The translations under genes and the position numbers were made by a program. A DNA stretch of 64,000 nt from Serratia inhibens (GTDB taxonomy: Bacteria; Pseudomonadota; Gammaproteobacteria; Enterobacterales; Enterobacteriaceae): the NCBI RefSeq assembly GCF_003591175.1, contig NZ_QYYG01000002.1, positions 1 through 64,000 of the forward strand, given 5' to 3'. Positions 52,079 to 52,294 of this stretch are shown here, in pieces (within the stretch, counting starts at the first letter, position 1; each line of letters opens with the position of its first letter). Under the pieces are notes generated by a model. The model worked only from the letters and a program-made list of their open reading frames with translations, ran no database searches and was not told the origin of the DNA.

Positions 52079-52294
52079 TACACCCTGTAGTTTCACGTTG
52101 GCCGCTCTGGCGCGCCCATGCGCTCGCGGCATTTGTACATCCCCGTACAGCACAACCAGGCACCCAGCTAAGTAGCTGCGCCTGATAGTGCTACAGGTGG
52201 GGGCATACAGAGCGCCGACACGCCGTGAACGCATGCCTGCGCTCAGCGGTCGGCTAACCTGTAATGACCCCACCGGCCTCAAACTTAGGGTGTA
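52079..52294. mobile_element. MITE-like palindromic element between astD and astB
   Basis: A 216-bp segment bounded by imperfect terminal inverted repeats: TACACCCTGTAGTTTCAC on the left (52079-52096) and, on the opposite strand, TACACCCTAAGTTTGA at the right end (52279-52294). Internal parts also match their own reverse complement imperfectly (CATGCGCTCGCGGC against CATGCGTTCACGGC; CAGCACAACCAGGC against TAGCACTATCAGGC). It encodes no transposase and lies where ast genes are otherwise tightly packed. The right end supplies the astD stop codon. Confidence 0.65.

Follow-up and report, generated by a model that had tools for sequence, protein, structure and literature searches.

The spacer between astD and astB in Serratia inhibens, as judged from sequence comparison, very probably holds what is left of two palindromic, non-autonomous repeats of different kinds, namely an arm of an ERIC element and a member of a repeat family termed here family B. 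The astD reading frame continues across the junction for four more codons, up to a TAA that belongs to B. As an instance of repeats that have landed between genes, the fused pair at astD–astB is neat but fairly ordinary. The window, i.e., the whole stretch of 64,000 nucleotides that was analysed, contains the following features:

50696..52036, minus strand: astB, N-succinylarginine dihydrolase, downstream of the composite (TIGR03241, 828.8 bits)
52079..52169, plus strand: one ERIC arm with an internal insertion, the other ERIC half missing (85% identity to ERIC C1:656632-656827)
52169..52171, plus strand: TAA common to the ERIC arm and the B end, putative target of the B insertion
52169..52307, minus strand: family B repeat, a YPAL-related palindrome with its inner apex and its astD-side outer end missing
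52285..52299, minus strand: ACC GCT ACA CCC TAA, four codons and a stop given to astD by B (AstD ends compared)
52285..53769, minus strand: astD, succinylglutamate-semialdehyde dehydrogenase, with a lengthened C terminus (TIGR03240, 859.5 bits)
52300..52307, minus strand: CGTTTAAT, 8 bp found both in B and at the astD end of relatives, putative deletion junction

The genes astD and astB were named by NCBIfam, and astC, astA, and astE from gene order only. On the minus strand, 248 bases separate the end of astD at 52285 from the start of astB at 52036; elsewhere in the ast cluster, the distance between neighboring ORFs is 52 (54803/54856) or 11 (50684/50696), or they overlap by one base (53769). 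These coordinates agree with an earlier note on this DNA, which had pointed to a 248-base gap in an otherwise tightly packed cluster. An Rfam search of 51500–52900 returned nothing up to E 1, and a terminator scan of 51950–52450 found no terminator-like site. The promoter scan of the latter interval gave one promoter-like site, at 51963–51990, which is outside the composite.

The search of the own genome with 52060–52330 yielded 30 matches. Apart from the window itself, ten of them have E <1e-11, and the E of the other 19 is 0.028 or worse. Among the ten strong matches, seven cover the right part only (query 108–254) and three cover the left part only (query 20–112). The two repeats join at 52169, and B extends to about 52307. 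Across 30 genomes of the genus, the whole query was matched in one besides the own genome (G000), at the orthologous junction of the sister genome G015.

The left part, 52079–52169, shares 85% identity with positions 7–98 of the ERIC at C1:656632–656827 in the same genome. Over its full length, this ERIC aligns with the published RU-1/ERIC consensus, save for about 53 extra bases, and its score against RU-1 is 99, while the best of 300 shuffles reached 27; the window's arm alone does not rise above shuffles in the comparison with RU-1. At least 52 ERIC-like matches were found in the own genome among the candidates scored (40 of 126), some of them being pieces of one element. The stretch 52079–52169 resembles ERIC/IRU/RU-1 in matching one arm of own-genome ERICs, including the TATACCC-type end, and differs from them in having one arm, extra internal bases, and no conserved ERIC centre. 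The window ERIC is a fragment and not a whole element, since the centre and the other arm of the complete 127-bp ERIC with its conserved centre are absent in the window.

Family B is represented by a full copy at locus L002 that is 173 bp long between its ends (C23:193169-193341). With a one-copy query, B was identified in five of the 30 genus genomes: G000, G015, and G016 have eight (the ast locus included), nine, and five matches, respectively, and G007 and G020 have one each. An exact 18-base B pattern was found in 44 stretches of the genome contigs database, of which 32 carry a Serratia title (sp. H1w, silvae, plymuthica, quinivorans, and sp. Ag1); the remaining 12 came from scattered taxa and were taken together as chance. 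A four-copy B profile found 85 rows in the loci examined, or 55 once identical cores were removed, and 44 copies were retained (E up to 1e-10, at least 130 model positions, and no overlaps).

In an alignment of 27 rows, made up of the window and 26 hand-picked other copies, the ends of B read TAAATA(A/G)CTGCG, and there are 33 consensus pairs; in seven of these, one row or more is changed on each side of the pair. The window copy is without about 24 alignment columns at the apex, much of the same stretch being missing from L003 as well, and its outer end towards astD is missing too. In a search for a mobilising partner with the ends of B, the exact 12-base B-end pattern has 15 hits in G000, G015, and G016 (5, 6, and 4, respectively) versus 13 (2, 6, and 5) when reversed, counts that single out no partner. 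L071:1474-1980 (G016:C1 about 383126-383616) contains a head-to-tail series of two B copies and a further fragment, about 197 bp apart. Besides the ast spacer, B and ERIC were seen by eye to be close together at L003:1340-1660, with a few tens of bases between a B copy and an ERIC-like element.

B is called YPAL-related, and not YPAL, because its ends differ from YPAL ends. The RU-2 sequence printed in PMC2759123 has a core of about 65–70 bases in common with B, and YPAL/RU-2 and B are likewise of about equal length, palindromic, intergenic, and near gene ends. Seven B copies were tested against RU-2, of which five scored above all 300 shuffles, and L002 was equalled by 1/300; the window copy scored 15 versus a shuffle mean of 15.4, with 173/300 shuffles as good. 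RU-2 matches occur in nine of 149 genomes drawn from the bacterial family, and none was found in G000 at E 1e-5. The B profile gave six rows against 20 YPAL-type loci taken from that RU-2 search, with a best E of 6.4e-5. No agreement was found between the termini: B has TAAATA(A/G)CTGCG ends and TAA/TTAA flanks, whereas RU-2 starts TTCAGAC (PMC2759123) and YPAL is described in PMC2229807 as having no terminal TA and duplications of 3–26 bp. In three YPAL-type loci of other genera (L219, L226, and L234), the same terminator-like stem was seen by eye on both flanks, which looks like a target duplication of the entire stem. Among the titles and abstract openings listed by literature searches, no report on a YPAL-like repeat of Serratia was found.

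B occurs at filled and empty sites in close relatives and is therefore mobile. The L010 site is filled in G000 and empty in G015, with flanks that are 98% and 96% identical, and the L002 site is filled in G000 and G015 and empty in G016, G002, G003, G006, G011, and G019. The L007 site has the sequence GGTTATTAATCCTG in the relative G018, and in G000 it has GGTTATTAA, the element, and TTAATCCTG; from this comparison, TTAA (or TAA) flanks B on both sides. The TTAA duplication was seen at this one site only, and no clear length of duplication could be read from the other sites compared.

B repeats tend to lie at gene stop codons. After the 44 copies were merged into 32 sites, an ORF stop was located within −30 to +20 of the B edge at 17 of the 32 versus 522/2822 random intergenic points (18.5%; binomial tail 1.1e-5), and an earlier count of unmerged copies gave 23/44 versus 8.9% of 77819 random placements, all of these counts being approximate because the ORFs were called mechanically. 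In nine of the 32 sites, the stop falls between −15 and −5, a position at which the TAA/TAG that ends the element can itself be the stop. Three sites (L009, L068, and L114) are without a stop in the range examined, and in 12 others, including the window/G015 site at −39, the stop is outside −30 to +20. De Gregorio reportedly noted in 2006 that YPALs tend to sit just after stop codons. In Serratia silvae (L121:2925-4069), a B copy directly follows the TAG stop of a gene orthologous to window 56727–57704, the proteins being 89% identical. We tentatively consider that B may be a Serratia repeat homing to stop codons, with TAA as both target and duplication, and that a deletion at ast then made the new AstD tail. 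Insertion of B into a TAA stop would rebuild the stop and so be harmless, because TAA is also B's own end.

The astD–astB junction was matched in 27 of the 30 genus genomes, the own genome counted, and the junction types were sorted by eye. The composite of B and half an ERIC is present in two of them (G000 and G015). In G005–G007 (3/27), the spacer has the two ERIC ends plus a short palindrome nested there, while G017–G020 (4/27) have one ERIC end and the same nested palindrome; G004, G016, and G023 (3/27) have a short spacer, and 15/27 have a short spacer of another kind. In the astD–astB spacers L034, L035, L037, L039, L041, L043, and L044, ERIC ends accompany the nested short palindrome TGTAGGGGCGCAGC...GCGCCCCTAC. 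The comparison of junctions suggested in the earlier note gave empty counterparts, with 25 of the 27, the own genome counted, being without the composite. The seven relatives with ERIC ends and a nested palindrome suggest that the astD–astB site collects repeats. The tree of astB and astD (27 rows) places G000 and G015 as sisters (support 100/99) and G016 as sister to both (100/100), the deeper order in the clade being unsure. The B parts of the composites in G000 and G015 differ by several substitutions and gaps.

AstD ends in SFN* at 10 of the 27 junctions and in an SFR-type end at 15 (three of them LFR or AFR), and it is extended at two, reading SFNTATP* in G000 and SFNTDTP* in G015. It had been proposed that repeat DNA supplies the stop of astD, which is correct, as ACC GCT ACA CCC TAA lies inside B. 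The accompanying claim that the native AstD end was replaced does not hold, as SFN is kept and TATP is added. The native end was kept and lengthened, since SFN is retained when compared with the SFN* and SFR-type ends of relatives. The closest precedent found for this lengthening is ECA4072, in which 16 nt of RU-2 add four residues to the protein C terminus (Delihas 2007, PMC2759123). Four residues are thus added there by RU-2 and here by B to AstD; unlike that in ECA4072, the AstD fusion would stem from a later deletion and not from the insertion itself.

The best history for the locus runs from ERIC to B to deletion, because CGTTTAAT is common to the astD ends of four relatives and to B. An ERIC with an internal insertion would first have occupied the astD–astB spacer and would then have received family B at a TAA of its own. 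CGTTTAAT would have stood both at the end of astD and close to the end of B, and a single deletion from one copy to the other would account for the loss of the native astD stop, of the distal half of the ERIC, and of the outer B end. At 52169, the ERIC arm reads CCCAGCTAA and the B end reads TAAGTAGCTGCG, with TAA in common, and the ERIC in L005 reads AGCTAACTC at the place matching this junction, all of which fits an insertion of B at TAA inside an ERIC. CGTTTAAT is found as GTCGTTTAATTAA at the astD end of G005, G006, G007, and G020 and as GCGTTTAATACC inside B copies. The intermediate, a whole ERIC with B inside, was seen at none of the 27 junctions. G016, the sister to G000 and G015, has a short spacer in which neither repeat was recognised, so ERIC may have been lost there or gained separately, or the history may be more tangled. 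Furthermore, the ERIC ends in G005–G007 are without the extra bases of the window's arm, and it is therefore not certain that they come from the same insertion.

B might instead have inserted directly at the TAA stop of astD beside the ERIC, with later deletions trimming B's outer end and joining B to mid-ERIC. B is often at stop codons, and the CGTTTAAT repeat would equally explain the loss of the native stop, but the intact far end of B meets the ERIC arm exactly at the TAA found in another ERIC, a junction for which direct insertion at the stop needs a second chance breakpoint, and we regard this course as unlikely. Far less probable still is the proposal of the earlier note, a single 216-bp MITE at 52079–52294 that arrived in one piece and has TACACCCT as its terminal inverted repeats. 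The two 8-mers, TACACCCT at 52079–52086 and AGGGTGTA at 52287–52294, are both present and pair exactly, and the whole stretch folds well; however, they are an ERIC end and B-internal sequence and not the ends of one element. The halves fall in two repeat families that meet at 52169, B runs beyond 52294 to 52307, and the ERIC-side 8-mer keeps just 5/8 letters in G015. The copy search did find genomic copies, but of halves that occur apart, and the two together were matched nowhere else in the own genome. What stands from that proposal is mobile, palindromic, MITE-like DNA in the gap, with other copies and empty counterparts.

The potential for a hairpin was also borne out, as folding is better than in all shuffles on both strands: z is −3.82 for 52060–52330 on the plus strand (0/200 shuffles as good) and −3.58 for 52030–52330 on the minus, transcribed strand (0/100). 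The joined palindromes are predicted to be able to form a long hairpin in the message, at the boundary of astCAD and astBE. Upstream of astB in the window, its frame runs for 88 codons before a TAA is reached, which confirms an open frame across the element; the claim that polarity was thereby avoided is not supported, as G015 has three stops in the corresponding stretch, the nearest 10 codons up, and 109/2000 spacer shuffles are open in the astB frame (289/2000 in some forward frame). The open frame was rejected as evidence of avoided polarity, being broken in G015 and compatible with chance. That the composite is kept because its hairpin or open frame serves astB expression, through regulated processing or polarity relief, appears very unlikely. 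The predicted hairpin is stable, the composite persists in two species, and ERIC at gene 3′ ends in Yersinia carries an RNase E site that lowers upstream transcripts, according to PMC2229807 and PMC10969869. On the other side, hairpins follow from each repeat's own palindrome, the frame is as described above in G015 and in shuffles, and the B parts of the two species have diverged by the substitutions and gaps already mentioned. Any effect would, by analogy with the ERICs at gene ends in Yersinia, most likely be a mild change in mRNA processing or stability. The stop codon at this locus is thus supplied by mobile repeat debris, and the picture of one new MITE that took the place of the AstD end and escaped polarity is not borne out.

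The composite leaves the picture of the ast operon unchanged. It gives an example of repeat debris lengthening a conserved enzyme, found in two sister genomes of 27 compared, and the analysis links a Serratia repeat family, B, to the YPAL family. It also suggests a reason for such repeats at gene ends, namely a TAA target able to restore a stop. If B does home to stop codons, the ast locus would represent a further step, in which a deletion at the repeat end turned debris into the C-terminal tail of a conserved enzyme.
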